This document shows, in pieces, positions 9,339-64,000 of a stretch of DNA of 64,000 nt. The stretch lies in contig NC_135248.1 of NCBI RefSeq assembly GCF_947623445.1, forward strand, positions 2,356,001-2,420,000, written 5' to 3'. The position numbers and the translations under genes were made by a program. Positions within the stretch are counted from its first letter, which is position 1; each line of letters starts with the position of its first letter. Below the pieces are notes generated by a model. It ran no database searches, was not told the origin of the DNA, and worked only from the letters and a program-made list of their open reading frames with translations. Source of the DNA: Clavelina lepadiformis (lineage: Eukaryota; Chordata; Ascidiacea; Aplousobranchia; Clavelinidae).

Positions 9339-9363
9339 GTTATAAGTTAATGTGAGTGGCAAC
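9322..9363 (+). promoter_or_regulatory. 3' splice acceptor and minimal start-stop uORF before the TDRD9-like start
   Basis: A pyrimidine-rich tract ending in tttgcag (AG at 9337-9338) is a good acceptor. It is either the end of a 5' UTR intron or a spliced-leader trans-splice site, which ascidians are known to use. The resulting leader is only 25 nt long and contains ATG immediately followed by TGA at 9350-9355, a one-codon uORF 8 nt before the main ATG at 9364. Confidence 0.55.
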
Positions 9364-12300
9364 ATGACAGCTCCTCATTTGACTCGATTGACACCTGAGC
9401 CAACACTGGATGAGTTCAACAACTTTTCTTCACTTGTACCTCGGACACGTCCAAGAAGAAAGATTTTTCTAGGTGCAAAGTTCCGTGGTAGATGCTTTGA
9501 TCCGAAAACGGAGAAACCTGCAGAACCAGTGATAGAGGATGTGGCCTCGACACCGGAGCGTTATGGCAAGTTTGGCCGTGTGGATGATGATCCTAGTGAC
9601 GATTATAAAGAAGAAATTCTTCCTTCATCAGTTGATATCTCCTTGTTATCGGTTTCGAGTGATGTGGCCTCGACACTGGAGCGTTATGGCAAGTTTGGCC
9701 GTGTGGATGATGATCTTAGTGACGATTATAAAGAAGAAATTCTTCCTTTATCAGTTGATATCTCCTTGTTATCGGCTTCGAGTGATTGCCTGGAGGTTTA
9801 CAATAACTATGACTTCGAGCATCAGTATGATGAAAATCTTCCGACATTCTGTAATCGCTCAGAGATCCTTGATGCCATCTCAGGTTTTGCAATCACCTTC
9901 ATTAAAGGTACAGCTGGAAGTGGGAAAACTACACAAGTGCCCCAATATATTCTGGATCAGCATGCCAGGGCTCGAAAGTACTGCAATATCGTCGTCGCTC
10001 AAACACTGAAGATAATGGCCATACATGACGCAGAAAGGGTGAGCCAGGAAAGAAATTGGGGTCCGGTTGGGCGATTGGTCGGTTATGATGTCGAATTTGA
10101 TAAGAAGACTTCATCTGATACCCGGATCACTTACATGACAACAGGTGTTCTTCTACGGCGCCTCATTGCTAAGAAGACTTTGAGAGAATTCACACATATT
10201 ATCCTGGATGGAGTAAACGAACGAGATCAAGAAACGGACTTTGCGATATTTTTGATTCGCAAACTCTTTGAGTTGAACTCGAGGTCTGTTAAAGTGATTC
10301 TCATGTCAACTAGTTTTGACAATATTCATCTTTCACACTACTTCAACGCTCAAGACCCGGACATCGATACAGAGATACCTGTAACTCATGAGTCGATCTT
10401 TATCGATGGGGGAATTCGTCATGTCAGTGACAATTACATTGAAGATCTTCCCTCATTCGGTAACATTCCTACATTTGAAATTTCCAATCCTGAAATCAGT
10501 GACGAAGCGTACGCTATTGCTGCAAGACTGAAATTTTTTCTGGATAAGATCGAGAAGTATGAGGAAGCAAAGCAGACTTCGATCAAAGGTCAACTTGATC
10601 CCACAAGCTCTTCCAGAGGTTCTGTGCTTGTCTTTCTTCCCGGACTTTGCCATATTCAGAAGATGGAAAAACGTTTATACAATGAACGATTCAAAAGAAA
10701 GCTTCAGATCATTCCGCTTCACTCCTACACCACCTCCGAAAACCTGAGTGATGTTTATGCTAAACCAAACCCGGGATTCCGCAAGATTATCCTTTCCACA
10801 GACATTGCAATAAGCTCATTCACAGTCCCAGACGTAAAGTTCGTCATTGATTTTTGTCTAAAAGAGTGCAAGGTGTGGGATGCAGATACCCACTTCCAAA
10901 GTTTGCAACTTCAATGGGCTTCCCTGGCAAGCGAAATGCAGCGCGCCAACTGTGCAAGCGAACTATTAAATTGCAAGGTTTTCCGTCTTGTACCGGAATG
11001 TTTTTGGGAGTATCGGATGCCTGAAGACGACGAATACCGAGAATTCGAACGATGCTCATTGGAAAGAATAATTTTGTATGTGAAGTTGCTAGATCTTGGC
11101 TCTCCAAAAGCTGTTCTTTCCATGGCCCTTTCTCCACCTGATTTAGACAACATCGAACGTAGCATTTTGCTTTTAAAGGAAATAGGTGCATTGTCGACTA
11201 TAACCAACCAGAAAGAATTAGATGGGGATCTTACCTTTGTTGGTCGTGTTTTGGCTACTCTTCCCATTGATATGCGATTGGGCAAGTTACTGATGCTTGG
11301 CTTTGTTTTTGGTTGCTTGTCGAATTGCTTGGTTATTGCCGCTGCCCTTTCCAAGCCGTGCTTCTTTGCAACACCATACAACCAACCCATGGAAGCATAC
11401 AAAAAGAAACTGTTTTGGGCTCAGGGCAGCTTCAGTGATTGCATTGCGCTGTTGAATGCTTTCCGTGCCTGGGAACATTGCGTCGATACACAGCAATTCA
11501 CAAGAAAATCGGATGAAGACGCTTGGGGTAGAAAAAACTTCATACAGATCAGCCGAATACATGAAGTGAAGTACCTGGTTGATGAACTGCGACAGCGACT
11601 TAGTCACTTTAACATTCGTTCGGATGATCAGTTGCATTGGAGTTCGGAAAATCCGCAGCAATGCGAGCTCATTCTCAAGATAGTGATGGCAGGTGCTTTT
11701 TATCCAAACTTCTTCGAACAGTCGGTTATCGATGAAACTCAAAGTGTAAAAGAGATGTCTTTGCTAGATCCAACTAATACTGTGATGTTTACTGGCATAC
11801 CCCGTGGTAAAGCTCCCTTGTTCAAAGATTCTCTGCTCGAAGCCACCAGGCAGTGTGGAAAACAGAAAGCGATCTTCTATGATGGATGTAAAGCTTTCAT
11901 TCAGTTTGAAGATTCGGACGTCATTGATACTGGCTCCGTTTCACCTGCTGTATATTTGGCTGGAAAACTTACAGAAACAAAAGGAAAACTTGAGATTTGT
12001 CAATCATATGCTGAGAAGCAACCAGAACCGGGTGTCCATACCAGATCACCAACTTTTCTGTACGAACCGGTTGAAAACAACAGATTCAGTGTGGAATTGC
12101 CCAATCCATCTGATCATGCGCGGTTTCCTGTACAAGTTACACATCTGATATCTGCTGTGTCATTTTGGGGCAACATGTTGTTACCCAGAAACATCGAACG
12201 CCTTCGAAACATTGGCGTCACTATCCAAACTAAGATTAGCAGCAAAGTAAATCCAGCAGAACTGGCAGTTGATGATCTTGTTTTAGCACCTTATGATGAT

Positions 12301-13542
12301 GGGAATGGTGTTGAATACTATCGTGCACTGGTCACAAACGTGAAGCTTTCTATTTCAGTGTTCTTCGTCGACTATGGAATCACATCAGATAACTTACGAG
12401 TTGATGATCTTCGTCAGCTGCCCTCCTCTTTGGAGAGGGTTCCATTCCAGGCAATCAAGTTTCGTCTGCGGGGGATTCTACCTCTCGAGAGCAGACCAAA
12501 AGATGAAAGTCGGCAATTTGTCCACAAAATCCTCCAAAACTCCACCCATATGGTGAACGTTAAGGTTTATTCCGTTGTGTCCAAAGTAGTTTGTGTTGAC
12601 TTATTCACAAAAAATAATGAGTATGTGAATGAGATTCTCATCACAAAGGACTACTGCTACTCCACTGAAGAAAGCAGAGTCTCAAAGCTCTCTCATGCTG
12701 CCTGGGAAACGGCTGAATCCAAAGGTGCATTTAGCGATAGTTCTTCTTCAGAAAAGCTGAATGACCAATGGGTGAAATATGATGGGATTAACAGAGGAGA
12801 ACGATTTCTTAATAGTCAAGGTCAGAAAATCAGCCTTTCTGCACCGAGATCAACATTCCAGGCTAACTTTAAGTCGATTATCAATTTAGGAGGTATAAGA
12901 AACATCAACATTAATCGCAACAGCATTAACAGCGTCTCCATCAACCAGAATCCGTCCAGTGGCATCAGGACCATTATGGTGGCTTCAGAAATTGGCATCA
13001 ATCAGACTGATAGCACCATGCTTGTTCGAAATACAACTCTACTTCCAAATATTCCAGACTTGCTTCCCCTACTTTGTGTCCTCTTTGCTCCTGTCGTAGA
13101 ATTTCGTGTGGATCCCAATCAGACCCGCTACATCGGAGCCCTGTGTGGCCTTGGCGCTGTTCAAATCCAGAAGCGGTGGCATTCCATGCTCCCAGATCAT
13201 GACATTGAAGTCCAGTTTAACACTCATTTCAAAATTCAAGACATTGTTGTCATCAACGCCCTTCGGATGTTGATGAACATTGCTGTCGGAAGCGGTGAAG
13301 ACATTGCTGAGTGGAGTCAAACTGTCATCCACAGGACACAAAAGCTTGCTCGAGAAAAGTTGCTGCTTTTGATCCAAAAGAAGAGGGATGCTTGTGATCT
13401 GACATCTTTCGGAAGTCTCTACAAATGGAAGCAGATCGATGAGGATGACGTGATCCCTCATCAGGTATCAGACAGCAGAGCGGATCGTAAAGACTTTTAT
13501 CGTCTTCACGATGGCATTTTGCTCAATGATTTTCAGGCTTAA
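9364..13542 (+). CDS. TDRD9: TDRD9-like Tudor-domain DEAH helicase with degenerate motifs, intronless
   Basis: An uninterrupted frame of 1392 codons, close to the roughly 1380 residues of vertebrate TDRD9 (Drosophila spindle-E), a germline piRNA-pathway RNA helicase. The order matches: N-terminal region, RecA-like helicase domain 1 with Walker A GTAGSGKT (182-189), helicase domain 2, helicase-associated region, Tudor domain (about 965-1035, with VFFVDYG), and a C-terminal segment similar to TDRD9 (SALLP-type region with LCGLGA and LPDHDIE). The in-frame ATG at 9364 is the first usable start. Key motifs are altered: motif II is DGVN (282-285) instead of DEVH, motif III STS (315-317) instead of SAT, and motif VI QRANCASE (526-533) instead of QRKGRAGR, so both motif VI arginines are gone. 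Tudor and RNA-binding surfaces may persist while ATPase activity is probably lost. The absence of introns, unlike every neighbour except where unresolved, suggests a retrocopy. Confidence 0.85.
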   Translation: MTAPHLTRLTPEPTLDEFNNFSSLVPRTRPRRKIFLGAKFRGRCFDPKTEKPAEPVIEDVASTPERYGKFGRVDDDPSDDYKEEILPSSVDISLLSVSSDVASTLERYGKFGRVDDDLSDDYKEEILPLSVDISLLSASSDCLEVYNNYDFEHQYDENLPTFCNRSEILDAISGFAITFIKGTAGSGKTTQVPQYILDQHARARKYCNIVVAQTLKIMAIHDAERVSQERNWGPVGRLVGYDVEFDKKTSSDTRITYMTTGVLLRRLIAKKTLREFTHIILDGVNERDQETDFAIFLIRKLFELNSRSVKVILMSTSFDNIHLSHYFNAQDPDIDTEIPVTHESIFIDGGIRHVSDNYIEDLPSFGNIPTFEISNPEISDEAYAIAARLKFFLDKIEKYEEAKQTSIKGQLDPTSSSRGSVLVFLPGLCHIQKMEKRLYNERFKRKLQIIPLHSYTTSENLSDVYAKPNPGFRKIILSTDIAISSFTVPDVKFVIDFCLKECKVWDADTHFQSLQLQWASLASEMQRANCASELLNCKVFRLVPECFWEYRMPEDDEYREFERCSLERIILYVKLLDLGSPKAVLSMALSPPDLDNIERSILLLKEIGALSTITNQKELDGDLTFVGRVLATLPIDMRLGKLLMLGFVFGCLSNCLVIAAALSKPCFFATPYNQPMEAYKKKLFWAQGSFSDCIALLNAFRAWEHCVDTQQFTRKSDEDAWGRKNFIQISRIHEVKYLVDELRQRLSHFNIRSDDQLHWSSENPQQCELILKIVMAGAFYPNFFEQSVIDETQSVKEMSLLDPTNTVMFTGIPRGKAPLFKDSLLEATRQCGKQKAIFYDGCKAFIQFEDSDVIDTGSVSPAVYLAGKLTETKGKLEICQSYAEKQPEPGVHTRSPTFLYEPVENNRFSVELPNPSDHARFPVQVTHLISAVSFWGNMLLPRNIERLRNIGVTIQTKISSKVNPAELAVDDLVLAPYDDGNGVEYYRALVTNVKLSISVFFVDYGITSDNLRVDDLRQLPSSLERVPFQAIKFRLRGILPLESRPKDESRQFVHKILQNSTHMVNVKVYSVVSKVVCVDLFTKNNEYVNEILITKDYCYSTEESRVSKLSHAAWETAESKGAFSDSSSSEKLNDQWVKYDGINRGERFLNSQGQKISLSAPRSTFQANFKSIINLGGIRNININRNSINSVSINQNPSSGIRTIMVASEIGINQTDSTMLVRNTTLLPNIPDLLPLLCVLFAPVVEFRVDPNQTRYIGALCGLGAVQIQKRWHSMLPDHDIEVQFNTHFKIQDIVVINALRMLMNIAVGSGEDIAEWSQTVIHRTQKLAREKLLLLIQKKRDACDLTSFGSLYKWKQIDEDDVIPHQVSDSRADRKDFYRLHDGILLNDFQA
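9538..9783 (+). repeat. In-frame tandem duplication of 41 codons
   Basis: Bases 9538-9660 and 9661-9783 are two 123-bp units differing at only a few positions. They encode consecutive acidic segments beginning DVASTPERYG and DVASTLERYG, N-terminal to the helicase domain. High identity points to a recent duplication. It sits in a region likely to be disordered. Confidence 0.95.
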
Positions 13543-24049: not shown

Positions 24050-26015
24050 ATGGCTTCCGCTGATCCACTACTTTATGTGAAAAGTCCGACAGCCGATCAG
24101 TTGCCAAATCGCGTGTTAGAACAAGTTTTTTCCTTTTTATCCCTAGAAGATTTGCAGTCGTGTTCATTAGTGTGTAAAACCTGGTTTCATTATTTAAATG
24201 ACGGGAACAATGATGTTTGGAGGTTTGTTTAGTTTTGGTTGAATTCAATTTCTAGTAGGTTTCTTGTAATTTTTATGATATTAATCTATGATTACATTAA
24301 TAAGGATGTGTTTGTTTCACTGGAAAAAGTTTTATCTGCCTTTAAATCTCTTTTTTCATTTAAATGCACAAATTTAATCAAAACATAAGTTTTATAACAA
24401 ACAGTTGAAACCAATTTAAATTTAGTGACTGGATACTTTCTTATTAGCTAGTTTTGTTGAGTTACCAGTATATCCTATTATTTCTTCTATTGTTCAATTT
24501 TTTTTATTTATGTATTTTGACATACTTTTGAGTTGGCTGGTGTTGTTGTGGCAGGTTACAGTGTGTCAGAAAATTAGCAGAGGCCACATTAAAGTCTGAT
24601 CTTTGGTCCTCCCAACCAACATATAAGGAAAAATTGCGAGCGTTTTACCACTCTTGGAATGCAGATGACTGCTCAGGAAATATTTATATAAAACCAGATG
24701 GTTTTACTCTTCATAGAAGGTATATCGTTATTGTATTGTAATATAGTTTATACACATTTCAGATTTGACAGTACACCTGAAGAAGCAAGCTTATGATTGC
24801 GAAAGTCGTGTCGAAAAATATAAAGTTAACCTTAAAAAGTGCCAAACTATATCCTGTTTCTTATTTTAGTTTATGCACAGTTACATAATACACGGTTTAG
24901 ATAAAATGGACAAGCTATGGGATTTTGGTAATACTTTGTTAGTTGTTTAGTTATAATATTGTGCTTGTATTAATAACTATTCCATCAGTTCATCTCTGAT
25001 CTAGTTAAACCTGTTCACCAAACTTATCCGGGTTGAAGAGACTGGGATTGGTGTATTATGGCAACCTTATGTTTTCAAGACTGGTAAATTGAAAATTAGA
25101 TTAGTTCCAAATGTGATGTTGTTTGCATGCAGACCAGAAGCACAATGCACAGATGGGGCGAGAGGTAGAATAGGTTTCGATTCCGGCCGTCACTCTTGGG
25201 ATGTCAGATGGAAAGGCCCGCTAGGAACAGTTGCAATGGTCGGCGTGGCAACAAAAGAAGCACCACTTCGTTCTCGTGGTTACCAGCCACTACTAGGGTC
25301 CTCTGATCAGAGCTGGGCATGGAATTTAGTTGATAATTATTTATTTCATGGGGGTACAAAGCAGGACCCCTACCCTAAGTGCAATAACCCTCCAAAATAC
25401 CAGGTACATTGGTGTGTATATAAGTTTTAAATGGTACCCTTGAATCAATGCATAATTTGGGTTAGTTTTCTTAAAACTAGTAGTGGGTATATAGGCTGTA
25501 TACACCGAACAGTCTCATTAGTTTCAAGTAATAACCTTAATTTCATTTTGTTGCTGATAGAAGAAATTAAGCTTGGAAGTAATAAAAAAGACTTGTTATT
25601 ATAGTTTTTGATAAACTAAAGCCTTAATTGATAAAAATCTTGCAATTGCCCTGGGGTAAAAAACGTTACATCTCTACCAGATAATGAAATGGTGGGACTT
25701 ATAAACATGCAGACATAACGGGGTTCATGGTGAAATTAATATTTTGTTGCAAAGACTGACACAAAACCATAATTTTGTAATATTGTGATTTCTACCTAAT
25801 TCTTCTTGTTTGCTTTGATCACGATTTAGGTTGGTGAGAAAATCACGGTGGTGCTAGATATGGAAGACAACACACTTGCCTTTGAACGAGATTACGAATT
25901 TCTCGGGATTGCGTTTCGCGGTTTGCCCCGAACGAGGCTTTACCCATCGATATCTGCTGTCTATGGAAACACTGAAGTGACAATGGTATATAGGGGAAAC
26001 CCCACTGATGGATGA
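24050..26015 (+). CDS. FBXO45: FBXO45: F-box/SPRY ubiquitin-ligase substrate receptor, 4 exons
   Basis: Exons: 24050-24222, 24555-24719, 25133-25403, 25830-26015. Borders are GT-AG and phases close to 264 residues (vertebrate FBXO45 about 286). Residues 1-58 form the F-box ([18 protein letters not shown] then CSLVCKTWF). A SPRY/B30.2 domain fills the C-terminal two thirds, with the family signatures [65 protein letters not shown] and a terminus YRGNPTDG. In vertebrates FBXO45 pairs with MYCBP2 (PHR1) rather than a standard SCF cullin and acts at synapses and in axon development. That role is inferred here from orthology. The N-terminus is shorter than in vertebrates, which carry extra low-complexity residues. 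An acceptor about 100 bases upstream suggests an untranslated first exon or trans-splicing. Confidence 0.95.
24766..24856 (+). repeat. Dispersed repeat in FBXO45 intron 2
   Basis: The block agtacacctgaagaagc, then gcgaaag, then ccaaactatatc matches the reverse complement of 57810-57895. The acctgaagaagc...gcgaaag arrangement resembles a motif common at the ends of many animal interspersed elements. The family cannot be named from this fragment. Confidence 0.55.
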
Positions 26016-34875: not shown

Positions 34876-36935
34876 TTAGGAGAGGTCTGTCTCCACCATG
34901 CAGGCAGATTCCTTGTTGTCAACGGTGTCACGTGGTTTCTTTGATGTTCGCTTTCGCAACCAAACACTCCAGGATTTGTTGGCAGGTGCAAAGAAAAACC
35001 TTTAAAACCAAATTAAGTGATAGAAATTTTCATGTCTGACATTTGCAATGCAGTTTAATTGTATCTCACTAACTAACTATTCTGTAGGCCTATAGACTGT
35101 ATACGTATACGTCTTTTATAGCCTGCAAGCAACGAAGCACGCTAATGTCACCACAATTACTCAACAAGTAATGCAGACAAATAGCCTTATTTAATTTTAT
35201 CGTATGACAGGTTAAAAGGAAGTTACTCACATGAAGTAGGCTGACGCAATAGCTGCTCCTGTTAAATCAGATAACCACAGCAACCAGTGACGATTCCAAG
35301 CAGCGCCCCCAGTGACAAGGGCGGGACCGAACGCCCGAGAAGGACTTATGCAGGATGCACCAACCCATTTTCTAAAACCAAAATGAACTGTTACTAGGCA
35401 ACTGCATAACACAGAAAAGTAGCTTAGAACAAGACTTGAGCCAGGTACATCTGTATAATTTACCATAAAAAAATTATATCTCCTTTGCCAGGAATTACAA
35501 CCTTAGTAATTCCGACGAGTTTTTATTATAAACGTAAAGTATTTACAATATATATGCTATAGGACTTGTCAGAACACAAAAGAAATTTCGCTTGTTAAAA
35601 TACTGTAAAATTAATTAGCATCATATAACGTCAATTGATTTCAATTATAGACATATTTAAAACTGCGTATGAATAGAATCTAATGTTTCAACTTACGCTG
35701 AAAGAATTCCCTGAAATACTGTGAGACCAATAGCAAGAGGACCTGTGGCTTGATCGTACGACTTATCCACTACCATGGCAACCGCAAAAAATACGAGAAT
35801 TCCGGTCATAGCCGCTTCATTTAAGAAAACACTCATGGAGCTTACGTCATCAGGTACGACAATTACGGAAGGATTTTTTCCCATGATTCCCTAAAACATT
35901 TATGGCAAAATAATTTTAGACATGAAAATATTTAATAGCTTGTATTTTCGTCTCCTCGAAGTTTATTCTCGTTTTTAACAGATAAAGCAAACTCTTTGTT
36001 AAAGCATTTGAGTCTTATCACAGGCTTAAATCAAACTTAGTCGCCCAAAGTACAATAGAAAGTTACTTAGAGAATGAAGACTGTTTGAAGTATATAACAA
36101 TAAGTTAAGGTAGAACAAAAAATTTCTTTGTTCCTATATAAAAAGATTGCTTTGTTCTTCCCGCTCTGTAACGCAATGATTTTCAAACTGCAAGACCTTC
36201 AGAAATACAATAGATTCCTGTTTTGCTGTATAACAGCATTTTGAAGAACTATCAACAAAGTTCCTTATAACCTTTCTATATAGATTTTAAATTATTTTAC
36301 TGCATTTTGAAAACTATAACCGGCAATAATAATTCACATTTTGCAGAAACGTATATTAAGGGGGTGTGTAAAACTTCCAAAAGTTCAAAAACAAAGTGAA
36401 GAAAGTTTACCTTTGCTAAGAATGCCGCAAACGTAGAAGCCAGGCACTGCATTGCTACGTACGGTATGAACATAATAGGTTTCAGGTCTCCGCTCACAAG
36501 AAAACCCATCGATATGGCGGGGTTGAAATGAACGACGCTGTATACAATGAAAGAGTTTGTAACGTAATCTCATCAGCACATATAACAGTAAGCCTGTGTT
36601 GAAACTGCTACGTAGACTTTATACCTTATTTTCCAAAACACAACTATTTGCATCCAAACGGATAAACCTGCTTGTAGTGCGGGGACAAACACTCCGAGAA
36701 AATACTGATCGTTTGAAGAGCACAGAGATCTTTCTCCGACATCCGTACTGTATTGCAAAGACATTTCACGAAATTTATTTGAATGCATTCTCATAAAATT
36801 GTGTACTTGCCTGTTTGTTTCAATTATAGCCGGCCCTGAAGCCATTACACCCCAAAGTGTGTGTATAAACTGGGCGGTAAACTCAGCTAGCAGGGGAACG
36901 ACGACTTGAGTGTAAATCGAACCTTTTTTAACCAT
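34876..36935 (-). CDS. AQP8-like aquaporin, 6 exons
   Basis: Minus-strand exons: 36935-36811, 36747-36625, 36537-36411, 35890-35697, 35371-35231, 34966-34876. They close to 266 residues (human AQP8 261). Six hydrophobic segments and two half-helix loops fit the MIP fold. The first loop is canonical NPA in HFNPAIS (88-90). The second is SPS in CISPSRAFGPA (199-201), with the selectivity-filter Arg202 retained and Cys197 two residues before the motif, as in AQP8. The strand ATGPLAIGLTV resembles the AQP8 'KGPLAPFSIGFAV' region. AQP8-type channels pass water, ammonia and hydrogen peroxide. Intron 1 must use a GC donor (AACAG/gcaagt) to keep frame. The tail WLRKRTSKKPRDTVDNKE is basic and cytoplasmic. 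The exact AQP subclass is inferred by similarity only. Confidence 0.88.
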
Positions 36936-43813: not shown

Positions 43814-46800
43814 TTATTCTGTTTCCGTGACAACAGGACCACCGATGTTAGGCTTGTTTGGGTTGTGGTCCACCAACCAGTCCGCTAACCATATCTAACG
43901 AAATATAGAAATAAGTGATATCTTGTTACTGTGGTATGACAGTGCCCAGTTAGGCAACAATTTAACTATCTGCTAAGAAAAACTTTGAATAAATTTTGCA
44001 AAAAGTCTTTGTGAACATAAATTCAGTAACAAGATTTTTATGTATAGAAATTAGCACTTACAACAGGGTCACCAGGCTTCGTTTTACAAAGTTCTGTCAA
44101 GCCTTGGAGCAGTGTTGGGTTGACTTCTTTCGAGAGGTAAATCTTCACAGCTTGTTCTGTGGCGATCGGCTCAACAATACCTAAATTAAGATTAAAATAA
44201 ATGAAAGACTTGCAATGGATTAACAAAATCATAACAACTTACTTGCGAAAATAATTTGTTTTTTTGGAAACAGAACCTATCTTAACAGAAAATATTGCAT
44301 TTGTATTAACCAAATATTTTATTGTATACATACTTTATGATTATGATAGTACAGATAGCATAAATTGTGAATTATTAAAGACAAATTATCTACGTTGTGA
44401 TGACCATTGTATTAACTCACTGTCATGAAACATGAATCGTATTTCTCGTTCTGCTGAAAGAAAACTTTCGCTGCCGTGGACGGCATTCCGAGTTTGATCC
44501 TTACCATATGTATCACGTAAACATCCTGGATGCGTTTCCCTGGCCTGATATAAACATGCAAAAATGTTATTAAATTTAATATATTTAAGTCATCAACAAG
44601 TTATAAATTATTAAATACAATTATAGATAAGTAAAGGTATAGATTGAAAGTTTTTGTAAAAGGTTCCCTGTTTTGTATGTACTTGTCTAGTTTCACCTGA
44701 CATGTTCTAGAACAGTGGTTCCTGAAGTGGGGGCCAGCGCCTCCCTGGGGGCGTTTGCGACCATGAAAGGGGCTCTGGTCACAAACTGGGCGATTGGGGG
44801 AGCTGAGAGCAAATCGGGGCAGTTACAAGAGCAGAATGACGAAGTGACTTTTAGACATTTTTTACTTCCAAAATAACATGAAGCAGAAACATGGCGGCTG
44901 TAGGAGCTTTGTGACTGATAAAGTGGTAATTCTTGTTGTCTTGTCAACAACGCCGTTTCAAAGAGTGATTCAATTTTGAACAGCGAATATTCAGTGAGAC
45001 TGATGTTTAAGACGAAACAAAGCTCTGTAAACGTTCGATTTATTTACTTATTGATATAGTTAAAAGAAAAGCGATTACGCAGTTCGAAAGAGGAATATCT
45101 TGTTGTGTCAGAAAGATTTTAGTTGTCGAAATTGACCCATTGTACGTCGAGTAATGGTAAAAATTTCAGGCTAATTTTAGTGCTTGTTTTGGAAGAGTGC
45201 ACATGCTTTTTTTTAGAATATTAAATTTCCTATCATACAGTTACATTTCAATCTATCTTCTTCTTTCATTCTTTTTACATCGTTTGCCTGGTATAAGACT
45301 TACTGTTAGTTCTGGAAGTTAAATAAATGTTGCTAAAATAACCATATGGGGATTTTTTGTGTGTTTAACATACTTTACAAGAACCCACTCATCTTTGCTC
45401 TCAGGTCCGATGCAGGAATTATACTTACTGTTAGTTGTGTAAGTTAAATAAATTGCTGCCAAAATAACCATCTTTAGAGATCATATATCCCAGCACTCAC
45501 CCAAGTGATAGTAAATAACTGCATGTACATGACATTATAATTTGCAATTTATACTGGCAGTAAACATGCAAAGTTTTCCTGATATATATAATTAATTTGA
45601 ATATTCAGATTTCCAATATATAACATAACTCCTATAAACACTTACATTTGTTGTAAATAACTTTTTGGGAAGTGTTACAAACAACAACTTATTTACAACA
45701 ACGAGCCAGCTATCAGAAAGTTTTATTTTTCTGAATAATGTTTATATATATCGCACCTTAAATGGATTTGTTGGTCCTATGAGTTCTCTCCATGCCTTGA
45801 TTGCCTTTTCTTTGGCAAGTACAAAGACACCAATTGGAGCACTGCTCATGTAAGCCACGAGGCTTGGAAAAAACATCTTGCCGTAATGCTCAACGTAGAA
45901 GTCACTTGCTTGCTCTGGTGATAGGTGAACTTTTCGCTTCTAAATAAAGTTTTGAAACACAATGTAAAATGTACTACTGCAGTATCAGTTACACAATTTT
46001 GGAAAAATACGTACACATTTTCAAATAACAATAAAATGTAAAAATACTTCGGAGAAAAAGCAATAGTTACATAAATCCTAAGATATTTGGATTAAAATAA
46101 CAGGGCAGAACAAAAATTTTCACCTGAATGACAGTAAATCCATTTCTCAAAATAATGTCTTCAATTTCGTTGGCTTTGTCCATTGCGTCTGGCTTGATGA
46201 TGGCCAATGTTCGTTCAACATAAATCTGTGGTGGTGGCATTCTTGAAGCCATGTTCTCAGGTTTATAGTCTTCGTCTCCTATACTAGAACTTCCACCACT
46301 TACACTGAAAAATGCATTGCTTTTATAAATATATTAATAGTTTGGTTATAGTATGGGTATTTGGGCATTCTTTCATAACACTGTCATGCATTCGAGTGGG
46401 TTGCTTTGAAATTGCTCCCATGCAAAACTTACAGCAATAGTTATTTGCGAAACCTTTTATTTTGGTCACAAATAATAATCAACCTTATAAATATATATCC
46501 TAATATCTAAAACTAAACCAGTTAAAATGTGCTGACATAAAACAAATTGTGCTCAAGGATGTGGGTTACACTGCACTTTGAGGCTCACAACTAATCTGTC
46601 TTTTAAATCAAAGTAGAGGGAGAAGCATAAACTCCTACAAGAAGCCAGGTATCAATAGCAAGAATATTTGTGTATGATACTATATTTTCGAAAAGCCAGT
46701 ATCCAAACAACAACTTTCCATATTTTATAAAAAGCTGGAAAATATTCCAATTGAACACACAAGACTTGTCAACATGGAAATCAAACTTTTTCGAGCAAAC

Positions 46801-48952
46801 AATGAGTTAAGACATCCAGTTCGGTGGTCGGACGATTCAACCCACGGACGATTCAACCCCGGACAATTCAACCCACGGACGATTCAACCCAGGACGATTC
46901 AACCCCGGACGATTCAACCCACGGACGATTCAACCCGCAGACGATTCAACCCGCGGACGATTCAACCCACGGACGATTCAACCCACGGACGATTCAACCC
47001 ACGGACGATTCAACCCACGGACGATTCAACCCACGGACCTTTCAACCCACGGACGATTCAACCCAGGACGATTCAACCCCGGACTATTCAACCCACGGAC
47101 GATTCAACTCACGGACGATTCAACCCGTTTATAAAAACGTCTACGCAGTCAATGTGTCAATTTGGTCAATCAATATGGTCAATTTTTTTTAACCTGCTCA
47201 GAATGCTATCACAAAACAAATTTCAGTCTTGTGCGACGTGTAGTACAGAAGTTATTAGGCTAATATAAAGTCAATTGTTTCGTTAGGTCAAGATACGGCC
47301 AATTGTGTCTTTTACGTCAAAATCTATTAAACTTGTAATTTTGTAATATTATTCTTCCGTTTTTCTCTTTTCTTGTACCGCAAACAATTCCAGTGCCCCA
47401 AATTAGAGGCCTACTTAGAACAAAAGCCACCAAGAGAGGGAAGGCCTTTCAGCGCGTCTGGTGACCTCATGGGTTGAATCGTCCGGGGTTGAATCGTCCG
47501 TGGGTTGAATCGTCCGCGGGTTGAATAGTCCGGGGTTGAATCGTCCTGGGTTGAATCGTCCGTGGGTTGAAAGGTCCGTGGGTTGAATCGTCCGTGGGTT
47601 GAATCGTCCGTGGGTTGAATCGTCCGTGGGTTGAATCGTCCGCGGGTTGAATCGTCCGCGGGTTGAATCGTCCGCGGGTTGAATCGTCCGTGGGTTGAAT
47701 CGTCCGGGGTTGAATCGTCCTGGGTTGAATCGTCCGTGGGTTGAATCGTCCGGGGTTGAATCGTCCGTGGGTTGAATCGACCTGGAACCATCCAGTTCAG
47801 TCCAATCTGGGTTATCGGATTTATTTAATACTGTAAATTAATAGCTAAAGCTTTGAAAGTTTATTGCATTCTAGTGCATTTGTCATGCTTCCTTTTATGG
47901 ACTCCAGTAAATCAGCTTTAGCATTAATAGAAAATTGAGTGCACAGAAGTTAACTGTCTAAGTCATTGAGTGCAAAACGCACCTTAATTGCACCACAAAC
48001 CTCAATTTTTTGTTTATTTATTACAAATTGGCGTGAACACAAAAATATTTCATGGTGTATGTTCATAAACCTTGTGCATGCAGCTGCCGCACTTACTACT
48101 ATGGCAATAGGGTCCGCAGTCTGGTGCTGCAGGGCTGACTGAGGTTGTGGGCTGGTAGGCCTACATTGTTTACAGCAAACTCACCAGATTAAGCTAGTAG
48201 CCTATGCAAGAGATCATGCACAATGGGAAAAATCCAATAGATGGACAACCTGCTTCATGGGTGAGGCAAATTAGGCCAATGGCAGTGGCTATTTGTGACA
48301 CAAATAGGCAGTGGCAATGACTGAATACCAACTACAAAACAAATTTCAAAGTGCTTATGAAACGTTAAACTCTTTAAAATGTGGTCTCCGAAAACTTTGC
48401 ACGATCCCATTTCGAAACGAGCATAAACCTACAAAATCATAACACATTTTTTGTTATCTTCTAAAAATTAGGCTAGCGAGCGTCGGGCTTAGGCCACGAG
48501 ACGATTTTTACCAATTTGAGATATGAGACGTTATTTGGTCAAATCAAGACAGTGGTTTTTACTGTGCTTATCTTTTTCGACTTTTTTTGCCCGAATAAGC
48601 CTATTTCGTATTTTTTCTATTCGACTTTATTAAACTGGCCTTTTCTGCCAACCAAAAAGGTTTCAGAACGTGTGTAGGCCAAGTCCTGCAAGGCAAAGGT
48701 TTATGATCAGAAACTGTGGTTGCTATGACATGAACATTGCCACCAGTGGCAGTAGAGCAGCAATATAATACTGTATCAAGAAAACGAAATTGTAGACTTT
48801 GTGAAAAAGGTTGTGTAAGGTAACATGCACCACTTCAACAATAATAATAAAATTCGCATACAAGATATATACTTTTACCTGCTAAGGCCACTGGATGGTC
48901 TATTTTCATCTTGAAACTCTGACTGCAAAATTTCGTCATCTTCAATATCCAT
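43814..48952 (-). CDS. NME5: NME5: nucleoside-diphosphate-kinase-like protein with Dpy-30 motif, 6 exons
   Basis: Minus-strand exons: 48952-48879, 46304-46124, 45939-45757, 44544-44421, 44180-44062, 43894-43814. They close to 253 residues (human NME5 212). Residues 1-44 are an acidic/Ser-rich extension absent from the human protein (MDIEDDEILQSEF...). The NDPK domain begins near 46 with MPPPQIYVERTLAIIKPDAM and includes KMFFPSLVAYMSS and NAVHGSESF, where His169 is at the catalytic position, then AEREIRFMF. A Dpy-30 motif follows (about 189-241): VNPTLLQGLTELCKTKPGDP then WLADWLVDHNPNKP. NME5 proteins are axonemal, associated with radial spokes in cilia and sperm flagella, and the Dpy-30 motif docks to AKAP-type helices. 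Intron 1 (2.57 kb) hosts an inverted minisatellite pair, and intron 3 hosts a hAT end. Confidence 0.93.
44713..44900 (+). mobile_element. Left end of a hAT-type DNA transposon, truncated
   Basis: CAGTGGTTCCTGAAGTGGGG has the form of the many hAT terminal repeats of the type CAGTGGTTCTCAAACTGGGG. No matching right terminus is seen within the following kilobase, so this is a fragment or its end is too diverged. It lies within NME5 intron 3. Confidence 0.55.
45297..45472 (+). repeat. Pair of about 50-bp direct repeats in NME5 intron 3
   Basis: 45297-45345 and 45423-45472 share acttactgttagtt, gaagttaaataaat/taagttaaataaat and aaaataaccat, 126 bases apart. The origin is a local duplication or part of a repeat. 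Confidence 0.75.
46831..47127 (+). repeat. Minisatellite array, left arm, 19 units
   Basis: Tandem units of 16 bp (gacgattcaacccacg) mixed with 15-bp variants (ending cccag or ccccg). Unit 14 is the rare gacctttcaaccc and unit 17 gactattcaaccc. The array is open in several frames because the unit has no stop, but it lies in an NME5 intron, so those frames are not genes. Confidence 0.97.
47470..47782 (-). repeat. Minisatellite array, inverted right arm, about 20 units
   Basis: Reads as the reverse complement of the 46831 array with the same order of variant units: counted from the outer edge, the 15-bp forms, the GCG forms, the gacctttcaaccc unit at position 14 and the gactattcaaccc unit at 17 all correspond. 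The arms are separated by about 340 bp of unrelated sequence, and the whole is flanked by near-identical direct repeats (catccagttcggt at 46813 and catccagttcagt at 47789). Confidence 0.95.
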
Positions 48953-53733: not shown

Positions 53734-55497
<1,764 letters not shown>

Positions 55498-59465: not shown

Positions 59466-62400
59466 ATGAAGACAATAACCGTTCTTCTTTCTGCTGTGAT
59501 AATCTTGCAAGTTTGGACTGCAGAAGGTCACGTGAGACTGACTTTCCCACCTGCCAGACAATACGCGATTGACTTTTTGGACAATGGACGTACAGTAGGA
59601 CCATGTGGCTTCCCTACGTACGATGGTACGTATCTGTAACAGATAGTTTTACAATGAATTTCGGATTTAATTTTCTACATAGAATTTTTGTAACTCGTTA
59701 ATTGAAGATATGTTCACCTTTTTTATTTATTTTTGTTAAAAATAGCGGAATGAAACTTTGAGAAGAACTTCCAGCTGTCTGTTAAATTTAACTTAAATCT
59801 CTTTGCAGGAGCGCCAAGAACAATATTTATGGAAGGAACGTCAGCAAGAGTGACCTGGCATCTTTCCTACGCTCATAAGGTGAGAAAGGTCGCGGACTGC
59901 AAATGTAACAAAAATGCATGAGTGTCGTGCACCGATTAAGCTTCAAATAACACTCCAGTTTCTTTATATGGCGCGGTATGGTTAGAAGCCTGAATGACTG
60001 ATGACAGTTACGTGTCGCGATTGATGTCATTAAGCAGACCAGATTGTACTATGCTTCCGCTTAAACATCACTCAAACGTCTGACGTCAACGCGTAGCAAC
60101 ATATGAATTGTCCCTGGCTACGTTACAACATATTACAAGGATTTATTGCTGTTTTGATAATTTAGATATAATTTGTATTAGTGTGATATATTTTTGGAAA
60201 TATCACTCTACCGTTATCTTTAACGAAATTGACTGGCATTTTCAGGGTGGCGCACAGATTCAAATCATTCAAGAAACACCTACAACTACTGTGGTCGCCA
60301 CTTTAACAAACGGTTTCATTTTTCAAAACGACTCTACGTAAGCACTGGATAAACAGAATGGTGTCACAAATACTTGTTTGCTAACTGTATTGGTTTTCTG
60401 CATTTTTCACTGTTTTGTTGTACAGACGTCAGTATGCAGATATTATCATTCCTATTGGCTTCACATGCGAGCAATGCACCATGCGATTGCTACGTCAAGC
60501 GTCTGAGTGGAGTTCTGCTTACCAGTTTTGGAGTTGCGCTGATATCACCATTCTTCCTCATCCTGACTCATCCAGCGCGCAATGTGCCAGTCCCCAAACA
60601 ACTGAGGATCCTTGGAAAGGAACAGGACCGCATGTTGAACCAGAACCAACTGGAGAACCAGAGCCAAGTGGTGAACCAGAACCAACTGGAGAGCCAGAGC
60701 CAACTGGAGAACCAGAGCCAAATGGTGAACCAGAAACAACTGGAGAGCCAGAGCCAACTGGAGAAACAGAGCCAAATGGTGAACCAGAGCCAACTGGTGA
60801 GCCTGAACCTACGAGTGGAGCAACGCAACCAGCATCAGCAAATGGGGAAGTATGTCAACCGTCTACTCCTTTACTGTACAACGCTTGCTATGATGGAAAG
60901 TGTCTCAACGGAGGAACATGTGATGCAGAGACTGGTCTTTGCTCATGCTTGAAGCTTTACTCTGGACAAAGATGTGAAGAATTTGGTAAGATATATTTCC
61001 TATTGGTATCTTCAATGTTGTTGAAAATCAGTCTTGTAAGTGTGTATATCTATTTTCTTTTGCTTTCAGATCATTGCTGGACTGACAACGACTGCAATAA
61101 CGGAGTATGCATCGACACCAGGAGCACAACGTTTCCGAGGCTACTCTGTTACTGTTTACCTGGCTGGCATGGAAACAATTGCGATAAAAGTGAGTGTAGG
61201 GAGCGATGTAGCAGCGAGTCTGTTTTGCAGATGCAGTTTTGTTTCTGTTCTGCAAAGTCTCCGATAAAACCTACAAAGAATTTTATTTAAGGTGTTTTAC
61301 TTATGGTATCAAAGCAAGGTAGATGATAATATATTTTTTGTTCGTAATTTCAGGATCCCAGATTGAACTTCAAGACGATTATGAATCAAATCCCAACTTT
61401 TACCATCGAGTCTTGAGCCCCGGTTTAGTTTCAATGCATTGGAGATTTTTAGGAAGTGAGGAGGTTGAAATTGCTGTTAAAGCCAAGACCCTCAGCTGGG
61501 TGGGACTTGGATTTAAACCTGAAAATATTGATCAAAACTGCAAAAGCTTCCCTGAACTTGATCTTCGTGCCCGCCTTGACGCTACACTTGACGGTTACAG
61601 AAACCTGTTAAGAAATCAACCAATCGTTCCTGTAAGTGTTAATTCAACCAGTTGATAAGCATTTAAAGTAAACGATGTTTATTACGGTTAATTGAAACTT
61701 TTTATATGTGGTTCAGAAAAACCCGTCAGTCGATCCAGAGTTGGCGATAGAGGAATCACTGGAGAGCAACATTGAAGCGGTTTGCATCCACGGACGCACA
61801 CCCGCAACCACTGGAGGTGGTCAACCCGAACCTGGACCTGAACCGGGACCCGAGCCTGGACCTGAACCTGGCCCAGAACCAGAACCAGTAAATCCTCATG
61901 GCGAACCAGAGCCACATTACCTTAACAAACGAGAAGCAATTGGTGAACCGGAACCACACCCATATTCCGAACCAGAGCCGAACGGTGAACCAGAACCGAA
62001 TGGTGAACCAGAACCGACAGTTGAACCAGAACCGAATGGTGAGCCAGAGCCAAATGGTGAACCAGAACCGAATGGTGAGCCAGAGCCTAATGGTGAACCT
62101 GTACCGGGAGATGGTGAATCTTTACCAGATAGCGGCGGATCGCTCGAATGGTTAACCAGATTTGGAAACACACCTAGCCATGCAATGGACTGCACTGACA
62201 TCATAATTGGATCCGTTAAAGGTAAAGTTTCTAACATATTTAAAAATGGGGTTCTTTATGATAAATAACCGGTTTCGCCATGAATTTTGTTTGACCGCAA
62301 AGCGTATTTAGGCGGCTTGCATCGCGTGCAAGACATGTACACAAGAGACAGGTCTACTCCGCGGGAAGATTATTGGTACGCGGGTAACGACGATTTAACT

Positions 62401-63586
62401 GGGTCAGCTGGTTCACAAGTTGACGGTTATACCACCATCGTGTTTAGAAGGAGATTGCGAGGTAATGGTGAATTGTGTTTTTTTTGGTTTAAGTTACGCA
62501 CACGTGTCATTCCTTATTTTAACATAATTTTTATCGTGAATGGCAATGTACAGTATTCACCCTCTGGTTCATTGGTCAAATTGTTCGTTTGGGTATGAGT
62601 TGATATGTTTGACTTCACAGCAAACCATCCAAGCGACCATTCCATCATCGATGGTCAAATGACGTTTATATGGGCTATGGGCCAGGGCATCGATATGTAC
62701 CAGCACGCTCCAAATACTGGTTTGGAAGACTGCACAGCCTCTGACTACAGGTCATTAAGACATTAACTTATACACTGAACCGAAAACGCCCAAAATTGTT
62801 AACGTACTTCATCGTTGGTTTATCAACCGTCACCGAATCTAGAAAATGTGACTTCAAAGCAAACATAGAACGAAACAAAGGGTCTAAAATGCAATTACAT
62901 AGCCAGCAAGATTACTGTCAATTAAAGTAATAGAAATGACATTGACCTTTGCAGGTTCTACCGGCACGATGAAATCAAATATCACGGCACTGGGCCTGAC
63001 CGAAGAGGCGCTTCTTCAATTAATCTTTTCGGTAAATGTTTTCTTTTTTCAGGACCAATCCTTTATATCTTTTAAAAAACGTTGTATACCAAACTTTGTG
63101 TAATGAAGATTCCATGCTTTAACAAGTCGAATTTCTTTGTTTAGACAAGCCAGATGCAGGAAATACAGGAGTCTGCAACTCAATGTCTGGTGAATATCGG
63201 TTGCCAAGCAATTGCATATTATCAGGTGACGATTTCAATTGTGACTATTTTGCAAGCTGGGAATTCGACCAAGCTGAAGACAACATTAACTTTGTCCTAA
63301 AAGTATGTGATAAGATTTTGTGTTATTTCAAATTTATGAATGTACGATATGCTTTTTGTACATGCTGTACATATAGGCTTTACGCAATTCATAGTCTTAA
63401 ATTGATGTAATTGCATGCGTGTTATAGTGTATTGAAATACTTTAGTAAGACTTAGACATTTTAATAGTCCAGGCAGGATCAATCCCGTTGGGTTGGGCTG
63501 GGCATCAGTTCCGATCAATTTATGCCAAACACGGACGTAATTGCAGCCTGGATTGATCAGAACGGAAACCCGGTTGTTCAAGACAG
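59466..63586 (+). CDS. Secreted LPMO-like / EGF / DOMON multidomain protein, 3' end beyond window
   Basis: Exons: 59466-59625, 59809-59879, 60246-60337, 60426-60985, 61070-61189, 61354-61631, 61717-62221, 62303-62461, 62621-62750, 62955-63031, 63145-63302, 63468-63586. Frames are continuous for about 810 residues. Residues 1-21 are a signal peptide (cleavage TAEG/H). The mature N-terminus would be His22 in [19 protein letters not shown], and the first domain (22-152) includes [13 protein letters not shown] (His71, His76) and [11 protein letters not shown]...FWSCADITI. This is LPMO-like, with X325/AA10-style ends and a candidate copper His-brace. Ten EPEPTG-type repeats follow, then EGF-like domains (about 247-294 and 295-334), a DOMON (about 335-720) split by a Pro-Glu insert, and a second DOMON starting near 727. 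The last donor could also be at 63590/63591. Enzyme activity is inferred, not shown. Confidence 0.8.
60637..60816 (+). repeat. Coding minisatellite: ten EPEP(T/S/N)G units
   Basis: Ten 18-bp units encoding EPEPTG and variants link the LPMO-like domain to the first EGF-like domain. They form a charged, probably extended and disordered spacer. Two units vary ([12 protein letters not shown]). Confidence 0.95.
61824..62109 (+). repeat. Coding minisatellite inside the first DOMON
   Basis: First PGPE-type units, then [11 protein letters not shown] units related to the 60.6-kb array. A dibasic NKRE lies in the middle. The array falls between the DOMON strands ending WVGLGF and beginning CTDIIIG. 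Confidence 0.93.
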
Positions 63587-64000
63587 GTTTGTAAAATGTA
63601 TAAGCTGTGTACGCGGACTACGTAGGGGCCGTCGATGGCAAAATATCATAATGAATGATCTTTACGGTTCATTTAAAAACCTTTTCAAAGCATTTGTGTC
63701 ACGAACCATTAACCATCATGAACCATTATGATTAGGACCCGAGACAAAGAACCCTTACCTACTTTTCTAAGGTAAAATCATTTTCAGAAATGACCTTTAT
63801 TCTATTTATCAGACGGACCTATTGTTTTTGTTAAGGATCACGCAGTACTTTAGGGCTTTAACTTCAAGTGTACTTGTAAGTGCTGCTTCATCCCCCATTC
63901 CCCCAGGCTATCTGGAAAAAGCCACAAAAATAAAATGGAGAACCACGTGACCATGTGACCACTCTCCAAATATGCTGTATATAAGCTTCAAATTGTTCGT
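63587..64000. other. Downstream intron or 3' part of the LPMO/DOMON gene
   Basis: The second DOMON is incomplete at the last recognised exon, so this is probably intron. A possible acceptor (ttatcag at about 63813) is followed by a short open stretch ending at a GTAAGT, but its translation does not resemble the missing DOMON part, so I do not call an exon. Confidence 0.4.

Follow-up and report, generated by a model that had tools for sequence, protein, structure and literature searches.

A membrane-tethered protein of the tunicate Clavelina lepadiformis that joins an LPMO-like domain with a predicted histidine brace to EGF-like and DOMON domains

Lytic polysaccharide monooxygenases (LPMOs) are copper enzymes that in many cases cleave cellulose or chitin. 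In fungi, LPMOs and their electron donors are separate proteins. To our knowledge the trimming and remodelling of tunicate cellulose is little understood. Tunicates are described as the only animal group that makes cellulose (PMC10334666), and a tunicate LPMO of family AA15 fused to GH18 has been reported (Sabbadin 2018; PMC5823890). In TdAA15A, as presented in that study, copper is bound by His1 and His91, with Tyr184 in the axial position and Ala89 at the site. The fungal X325 proteins have been linked to copper transport (PMC10952591), and the haem ligands of the cytochrome of CcPDH are given as Met83 and His182 (PMC6881789). Voshol 2019 (PMC6950343) refers to DOMON/EGF and LPMO_10 sequences in an early branch of the LPMOs, in a text that does not state host or domain order. 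In the Didemnum genome (PMC8704543) an LPMO orthogroup, ENOG5028N9R, which may be either AA15 or the family considered here, was reported as one of five orthogroups that are restricted to tunicates and present in every tunicate compared. Here we describe a gene, A, which starts at position 59466 of a 64,000-nucleotide stretch (the window; positions 2,356,001-2,420,000 of contig 9, NC_135248.1) of the genome of C. lepadiformis, together with its paralogues B, C, D and E in the same genome (209.06 Mb and 95 contigs searched). The host is a tunicate, a possibility that a first-pass annotation of the window had considered.

Over 59466-63586 of the forward strand a 12-exon model of A reads as a single open frame in which 11 of 11 introns are GT-AG, the acceptor of exon 12 being placed at 63476/63477, a shift needed to retain the frame. 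The first-pass annotation had described this interval as one secreted chain carrying a signal peptide directly before a His, an LPMO-like domain, a Pro-Glu linker, two EGF-like domains and two DOMON domains. The single frame, the GT-AG introns and the paralogues bear out that order, and the count of 12 exons holds for the interval but not for the whole gene, which has 20 exons, encodes 1,099 residues and reaches its stop at window-extended coordinate 66998, approximately 3 kb past the window end. In the exons beyond the window DOMON 2 is completed and followed by a SEA domain and a transmembrane helix, so that A is predicted to be a membrane-tethered surface protein; that it is freely secreted is ruled out by this continuation of the gene. 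The predicted chain runs from the signal peptide (residues 1-21) through the LPMO-like domain (22-155), a Pro-Glu linker and the EGF-like region (258-334) to DOMON 1 (359-391 and 574-666), DOMON 2 (746-863), the SEA domain (901-976 by Pfam, with VMGSIIV at 961-967), the transmembrane helix (approximately 1032-1054, hydropathy up to 3.3) and a tail of approximately 45 residues. The linker first described is present, and there is a second one, which interrupts DOMON 1. DOMON is matched by Pfam at E 1.7e-50, above cut-off, in three stretches that represent two domains because DOMON 1 is split. Both EGF models fall below cut-off (EGF_TEN 2.7e-7, EGF 0.0012). The SEA model PF01390 is matched in A at E 1.2e-7 (36.6 bits) and in B at 40.2 bits (cut-off 26.4), and the sequences GSIIV in A and GSVIV in B are of the GS[VI]xV type, which we take to be a SEA cleavage motif.

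The C-terminal half of the LPMO-like domain, linker 1 and EGF 1 all lie inside the uninterrupted exon 60426-60985, so that the fusion of the domains does not depend on splicing alone. An erroneous merging of two genes was ruled out by this exon, by the paralogues and by the splice junctions shared with them. When the genome was searched at the protein level with the LPMO-like domain, 16 matches came up: 15 lie in five loci, one of them A, and the last (contig 4, E 5.45) was dismissed as chance. Contig 9 carries B in tandem after A and contig 2 carries C; the tandem pair D and E, 89-97% identical across three aligned blocks, lies on contig 5. All four further loci show the layout of LPMO-like, EGF-like and DOMON domains, the EGF-like parts being read off the gene models. 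In these automatic models the splice junctions of A recur exactly at 16 of 19 positions in B, 12 of 19 in C and 3 of 19 in each of D and E. The models of B-E come from a spliced-alignment script; their LPMO, EGF and DOMON exons look reliable, their repeats and 3' ends do not. The entire layout, SEA domain and transmembrane helix included, recurs in B. In C there is a further, third DOMON-like stretch (of three pieces tested, one matches DOMON, at 0.0053, below cut-off), and SEA is matched in part, at 22.9 bits, also below cut-off; no SEA domain was found in the models of D and E. In C (contig 2:1310001-1319900) an apparent threonine-rich, mucin-like stretch lies ahead of the SEA domain. Between A and B the LPMO-like domain has a dN/dS of 0.08-0.09 and is under purifying selection. 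Four further loci, shared splice junctions and this ratio together argue that the layout of A is more than chance.

Such a layout could also belong to a non-catalytic receptor for adhesion or recognition, in which the LPMO-like domain would bind polysaccharide or protein and the DOMONs sugar or haem on a mucin-like arrangement of SEA domain and transmembrane helix. The SEA domain, EGF-like domains, repeat linkers, transmembrane helix and short tail are all receptor-like parts; a 2007 title by Iyer reportedly links DOMONs to haem and sugar recognition, and in insects the DOMON protein Knickkopf is described as binding chitin and organising it. The purifying selection on the LPMO-like domain, and the conservation in A-D of both brace histidines and of the N-terminal place of the first, speak against such a receptor, which we consider unlikely.

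The LPMO-like domain of A is scored by the Pfam models BIM1-like (PF20238; E 1e-4, 23.2 bits, cut-off 27) and LPMO_10 (E 0.012, 16.8 bits, cut-off 23). C lies above both cut-offs (BIM1-like 32.5 bits, LPMO_10 28.1), D is above that of LPMO_10 (25.8) and below that of BIM1-like (26.1), and B is below both (LPMO_10 22.5, BIM1-like 21.0). The NCBIfam model of SCE4755, NF043005, matches C at 1.8e-9 (37.8 bits) and A at 6.5e-7 (29.5 bits), its cut-off of 75 not being reached; since it also scores an AA15 domain of the same genome at 5.1e-8 (33.1 bits), it does not single out the tunicate domain. Searches of the genome with PF20238 and NF043005 gave no match, and none of the control genomes matched either; the empty result is probably due to the splitting of the domain over four exons.

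Profile comparisons reached further. SCE4755 members were gathered by a DNA pattern scan (99 loci; the pattern was made for G+C-rich codon use and the sample is biased accordingly), and a profile was built from 21 bacterial proteins, 21 of 21 matching NF043005 at E <= 0.001. Against this profile the alignment of the LPMO-like domains of A-D gave a probability of 98.4 and an E of 4.4e-15 over the full domain, with His1 on His1, GPCG on GPCG, second His on second His and CAD on CAD. Against an alignment of three AA15 domains joined from the same genome, whose own profile matches 5msz at 2.9e-54, the probability was 93.4 and the E 2.5e-7, in the C-terminal part, with His76 aligned to the brace His of AA15 and FWSCAD to FYGCAD. 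The best profile match is thus SCE4755 'polysaccharide monooxygenase-like', then AA15; the two E-values compare a 21-row with a 3-row alignment, which favours the deeper one. The ranking of relatives is further blurred by the bits given by the SCE4755 profile to D (38.6), C (30.7), B (26.6) and A (21.8) beside the three AA15 domains (28.0, 22.3 and 21.3). Against structures this profile finds AA15 at 9.3e-6, AA13 at 8.1e-4, AA9 at 0.026 and AA10 at 0.041. The A-D profile found one sequence in the PDB, TdAA15A, weakly (whole-sequence E 0.028, domain 0.16), while single-sequence PDB searches gave Elongin-B (0.34) as best match of A and an unrelated enzyme (0.77) as best match of C. The A-D alignment gave 7 and 31 pattern matches among genome contigs and viral contigs, none confirmed, and two chance matches (E 9) among plasmids.

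An AlphaFold2 model of one SCE4755 member, L101 (pLDDT 89.3, pTM 0.85), matches four PDB entries at E <= 0.001, each of LPMO class: the AA15 structure 5msz (1.6e-5, TM-score 0.62 by query length) and three of AA10 type. Ranks 5-7 are LPMOs or AA10-type proteins under the older name 'chitin-binding'; from rank 8 onward come antibody complexes, mite allergens and others, with the LPMOs 5ufv and 4qi8 among the next ranks. We take 2ben and 3uam to be of the AA10 class. No entry titled X325 is among the best 50 structure matches of this model. The four tunicate rows cluster together (97/83) in a 57-row tree, separate from AA15 (100/99) and from the bacteria; the tree has long branches, a tool warning of false joins and a midpoint root. 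Membership of AA15 was rejected, as only columns 33-133 of 137 align, no full-length match takes in the Cys-rich N-terminal half, and AA15 stands apart in the tree. These comparisons assign the domain to the LPMO superfamily but to none of AA15, BIM1-like or SCE4755, the last two taken in their strict limits. The SCE4755-type proteins themselves fall into two groups, one with a YQC-like ending (35 rows) and one with a YHHC-like ending (15 rows, 13 of them from Acidobacteriota or Caulobacteraceae).

Removal of the predicted signal peptide would leave His22 as the first residue of the mature chain. In the four distinct paralogues A-D the His is preceded by AEG, SEG, VQS or VTG, which fit the (-3,-1) rule as judged by eye. 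A-D keep His1, His50 and His55 of the mature chain, the C-x-x-C and FWSCAD. For the second brace residue the first-pass annotation had offered His71 or His76. His55 of the mature chain is His76, which aligns with His91 of TdAA15A (weakly, E 0.028), with the brace His of the AA15 domains of the same genome and with the second His of SCE4755, and is the predicted brace partner of His22. His71 is invariant in A-D and TdAA15A has a His there (chain 86), but the three AA15 domains of the genome and L101 do not; it was rejected because His76 falls on the brace His in every comparison. Phe142 aligns with the axial Tyr184 of TdAA15A, which places an aromatic residue at the axial position. The brace signature first claimed for the domain is therefore upheld, with His22 N-terminal and His76 at the homologous place, and we infer that copper would be bound by the amino terminus and side chain of His22 and by His76.

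A brace of this kind could instead serve a surface protein for copper binding or delivery like fungal BIM1/X325, holding Cu(II) without turnover with reduction to Cu(I) by the DOMONs ahead of uptake through a transporter. Of the Pfam models BIM1-like scores best on A, C and D, spans the whole domain and exceeds its cut-off in C; the domain length of approximately 135 residues (140 in the Pfam model) is closer to X325 than to AA15 (201 in 5msz); both the tunicate protein and BIM1 are membrane-anchored, BIM1 reportedly by glycosylphosphatidylinositol (GPI); and Tyr74 together with Tyr140 could damp reactivity. This account is somewhat unlikely in our estimation: in B, LPMO_10 outscores BIM1-like, an aromatic residue stands three before the Cys of CAD, as in AA15, and no acidic ligand on a Gly-rich loop is recognisable before CAD, a reading of the sequence made without an X325 sequence for alignment. 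The EGF-like and SEA modules would also point to contact with a matrix over metal uptake.

DOMON 2 is matched by DOMON at 2.3e-31 and, alone of the two, by the CDH-cyt model PF16010 (9.1e-5, 22.7 bits, below the cut-off of 27). Its profile weakly matches dopamine beta-hydroxylase (0.0014), cellobiose dehydrogenase (CDH; 0.014) and CcPDH (0.51) in the PDB, and its single sequence, again weakly, CcPDH (0.034) and dopamine beta-hydroxylase (0.078). Met783 aligns with Met65 of the CcPDH chain, which is Met83 in the published numbering if an offset of 18 is assumed, and with a Met of the CDH structure 4qi3. An alignment of DOMON 1 with DOMON 2 (E 4.3e-10) places Met584 on Met783. The pairs Met584/His674 in DOMON 1 and Met783/His875 in DOMON 2 are invariant in A-D, with a spacing from Met to His of 90 and 92 residues, against 99 in CcPDH. 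Haem binding by the DOMONs is plausible on these alignments and, because both carry candidate haem ligands, the donor/acceptor pair suggested by the first-pass annotation is possible.

The best explanation of these features, which we hold tentatively, is a tethered copper-haem redox protein acting on tunic polysaccharide. A would be a single-pass membrane protein of ascidian cells with an N-terminal LPMO-superfamily copper site of His22, His76 and axial Phe142, carried on a flexible Pro-Glu arm that may let it reach polysaccharide near the membrane. The two DOMONs would probably bind haem b through Met584/His674 and Met783/His875, store electrons taken from a reductant or partner outside the cell and relay them to the copper; the copper site, in turn, would oxidise surface polysaccharide, most likely tunic cellulose, and so loosen, trim or functionalise the fibres beside the cell. 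Self-cleavage of the SEA domain is possible and would leave the ectodomain held non-covalently above the membrane, from where it could detach under strain. The sequence itself shows the gene structure, the domain content, the tether, the paralogues, the purifying selection and the profile homology; the binding of copper and haem, the transfer of electrons, cleavage at the SEA domain, the substrate and the tissue are inferred.

Several observations weigh against this explanation. No LPMO model of Pfam reaches its cut-off for A, and the fold was modelled for the bacterial relative L101, with modest TM-scores (0.45-0.62 by query length) for the four best matches. Tyr74, at the place of Ala89 of TdAA15A, and Tyr140 are invariant in A-D, and Tyr140-Gln-Phe142 departs from the N/Q/E-x-F/Y/(W) motif given for LPMOs (Voshol 2019; PMC6950343). 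BIM1 is reported not to be redox active, and both BIM1 and X325 are described as keeping the His brace without polysaccharide cleavage (PMC7529816, PMC7924993). The Tyr74 and Tyr140 differences from canonical LPMOs and these brace proteins without cleavage make catalysis by A a hypothesis. On the haem side, the profile of DOMON 1 found no DOMON structure in the PDB (six unrelated chains, best 0.24), and His674 and His875 are covered by no structure alignment. The best structure match of DOMON 2 is dopamine beta-hydroxylase (0.0014), an example of the fact that a DOMON is not necessarily a cytochrome. The Pfam scan of A showed no carbohydrate-binding module, and the chain has no dehydrogenase or b561 as electron source. 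A match to the bacterial cellulose synthase model TIGR03030 on contig 9 (E 5.3e-29) speaks for the explanation, but it lies far under the cut-off (106 bits against 699) and could be another glycosyltransferase; since the same search is positive in 11 of 14 control prokaryotes, one of them above cut-off, the match alone is no proof of CesA. A search of the genome for GH6 (PF01341) gave no match and no control was positive, so that this is not evidence of absence.

A surface oxidase would use the same copper site differently, reducing O2 for the cross-linking of tunic protein or polyphenol, or for defence, without cleaving polysaccharide. Reduction of O2 without substrate is described as characteristic of LPMOs, and the electrons could come from haem DOMONs; no sequence feature favours an oxidase over polysaccharide oxidation, and we regard this as improbable.

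Elsewhere in the window an uninterrupted frame of 1,398 residues at 9346-13539 (forward strand) matches Helicase_C, HA2_C and Tudor above cut-off and DEAD below it, and resembles a TDRD9-type helicase. At 46678-47837, on both strands, arrays of TIQPTDDST/GRFNPRT occur in several frames, on the forward strand to 47265 and on the reverse strand from 47414, which suggests two repeat arrays in inverted orientation.

Table 1. Position of the exons of A and of other matches; coordinates are those of the window unless a contig is given.
Feature	Position	Strand	Content or basis
Exon 1	59466..59625	+	Predicted signal peptide 59466-59528 (residues 1-21), His22 codon 59529-59531, start of LPMO-like domain
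Exon 2	59809..59879	+	LPMO-like domain; Tyr74 and predicted second brace His76 (59874-59876)
Exon 3	60246..60337	+	LPMO-like domain
Exon 4	60426..60985	+	End of LPMO-like domain (TCEQC; Phe142 at 60526-60528), Pro-Glu linker 1, EGF-like 1
Pro-Glu linker 1	60628..60852	+	GEPEPT repeats, 18-base unit
Exon 5	61070..61189	+	EGF-like 2
Exon 6	61354..61631	+	DOMON 1, first part; Pfam stretch ~61425-61523, E 0.0031 alone, below cut-off
Exon 7	61717..62221	+	Pro-Glu linker 2 (~61819-62130), then DOMON 1, second part, with Met584 (62185-62187)
Exon 8	62312..62461	+	DOMON 1 (second part E 5.5e-16)
Exon 9	62621..62750	+	DOMON 1 with His674 (62704-62706)
Exon 10	62955..63031	+	Downstream of DOMON 1
Exon 11	63145..63302	+	Start of DOMON 2
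Exon 12	63477..63586	+	DOMON 2 with Met783 (63522-63524), aligned to haem ligand Met83 of CcPDH
Intron 12, cut by window end	63587..64000	+	Gene structure
Exons 13-20	contig 9:2420553-2422998	+	Rest of DOMON 2 with His875, SEA, transmembrane helix, tail, stop
SPRY match, below cut-off	25005-25427	+	Frame scan
Aquaporin (MIP) match	35230-35502	-	Frame scan
Nucleoside diphosphate kinase match, below cut-off	46070-46333	-	Frame scan
Ribosomal protein S8 match	53734-53964	+	Frame scan

The first-pass annotation knew of no described system of this layout. The DOMON/EGF and LPMO_10 branch (PMC6950343) and the tunicate-only orthogroup (PMC8704543) qualify that statement, since the domain parts and even their combination have been noticed in print; the protein itself appears undescribed in the literature searched, in which we found no account of it, of its membrane anchorage, of its paralogues or of the probable haem sites, and no paper naming DOMON, SEA domain and EGF together. 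The main text of a study of proteins with an N-terminal His (PMC12537917) does not mention DOMON, EGF, animals or X325. The architecture is one that would surprise a specialist. A putative LPMO-type copper site with probable cytochromes on a surface protein makes a concrete, testable candidate for the remodelling of tunic cellulose. If active, it would be a natural fusion of donor and LPMO in an animal, of which no described case was found in that literature, and would bear on the open question of how electrons are supplied to LPMOs.

Among known systems SCE4755 shares homology over the whole domain, with the N-terminal His, GPCG, second His, C-x-x-C and CAD ending. It differs in being bacterial, mostly from Myxococcota and Acidobacteriota among the 50 rows sampled, and its name was given by similarity; L101 has Tyr132, Ile47 and Asp130 where A has Phe142, Tyr74 and Tyr140. 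AA15 (TdAA15A, 5msz) shares the second His, C-x-x-C and CAD ending, which align, but has approximately 200 residues with an extra Cys-rich part, and Ala89 and Tyr184 where A has Tyr74 and Phe142. The genome of C. lepadiformis has at least three AA15-type LPMO genes, L036 (contig 2:24564741), L037 (contig 9:11689640) and L038 (contig 9:5462975); L036 and L038 are followed downstream by a CBM14 chitin-binding exon, in a check that covered these two loci. X325/BIM1 of fungi supplies the best Pfam model for A, C and D, is of similar size and is membrane-anchored, but BIM1 is described as having a GPI anchor and both as having an Asp ligand, whereas the tunicate protein has EGF-like, DOMON and SEA domains. 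Knickkopf of insects has DM13 domains in place of the LPMO-like, EGF-like and SEA domains, and acts on chitin, not cellulose. The branch reported in Voshol 2019 brings together the identical three domain names. The CDH cytochrome (AA8) and CcPDH are likened to A by the weak CDH-cyt match of DOMON 2 and by Met783 on the haem Met, and differ in that the chain of A has no flavin or PQQ dehydrogenase. In its strongest form, which we think rather unlikely, the comparison would make one tethered polypeptide a complete copper-haem redox chain working on the animal's own cellulose, with release controlled by a self-cleaving SEA joint: an animal counterpart of the fungal CDH-LPMO system, used for building and not for digesting.

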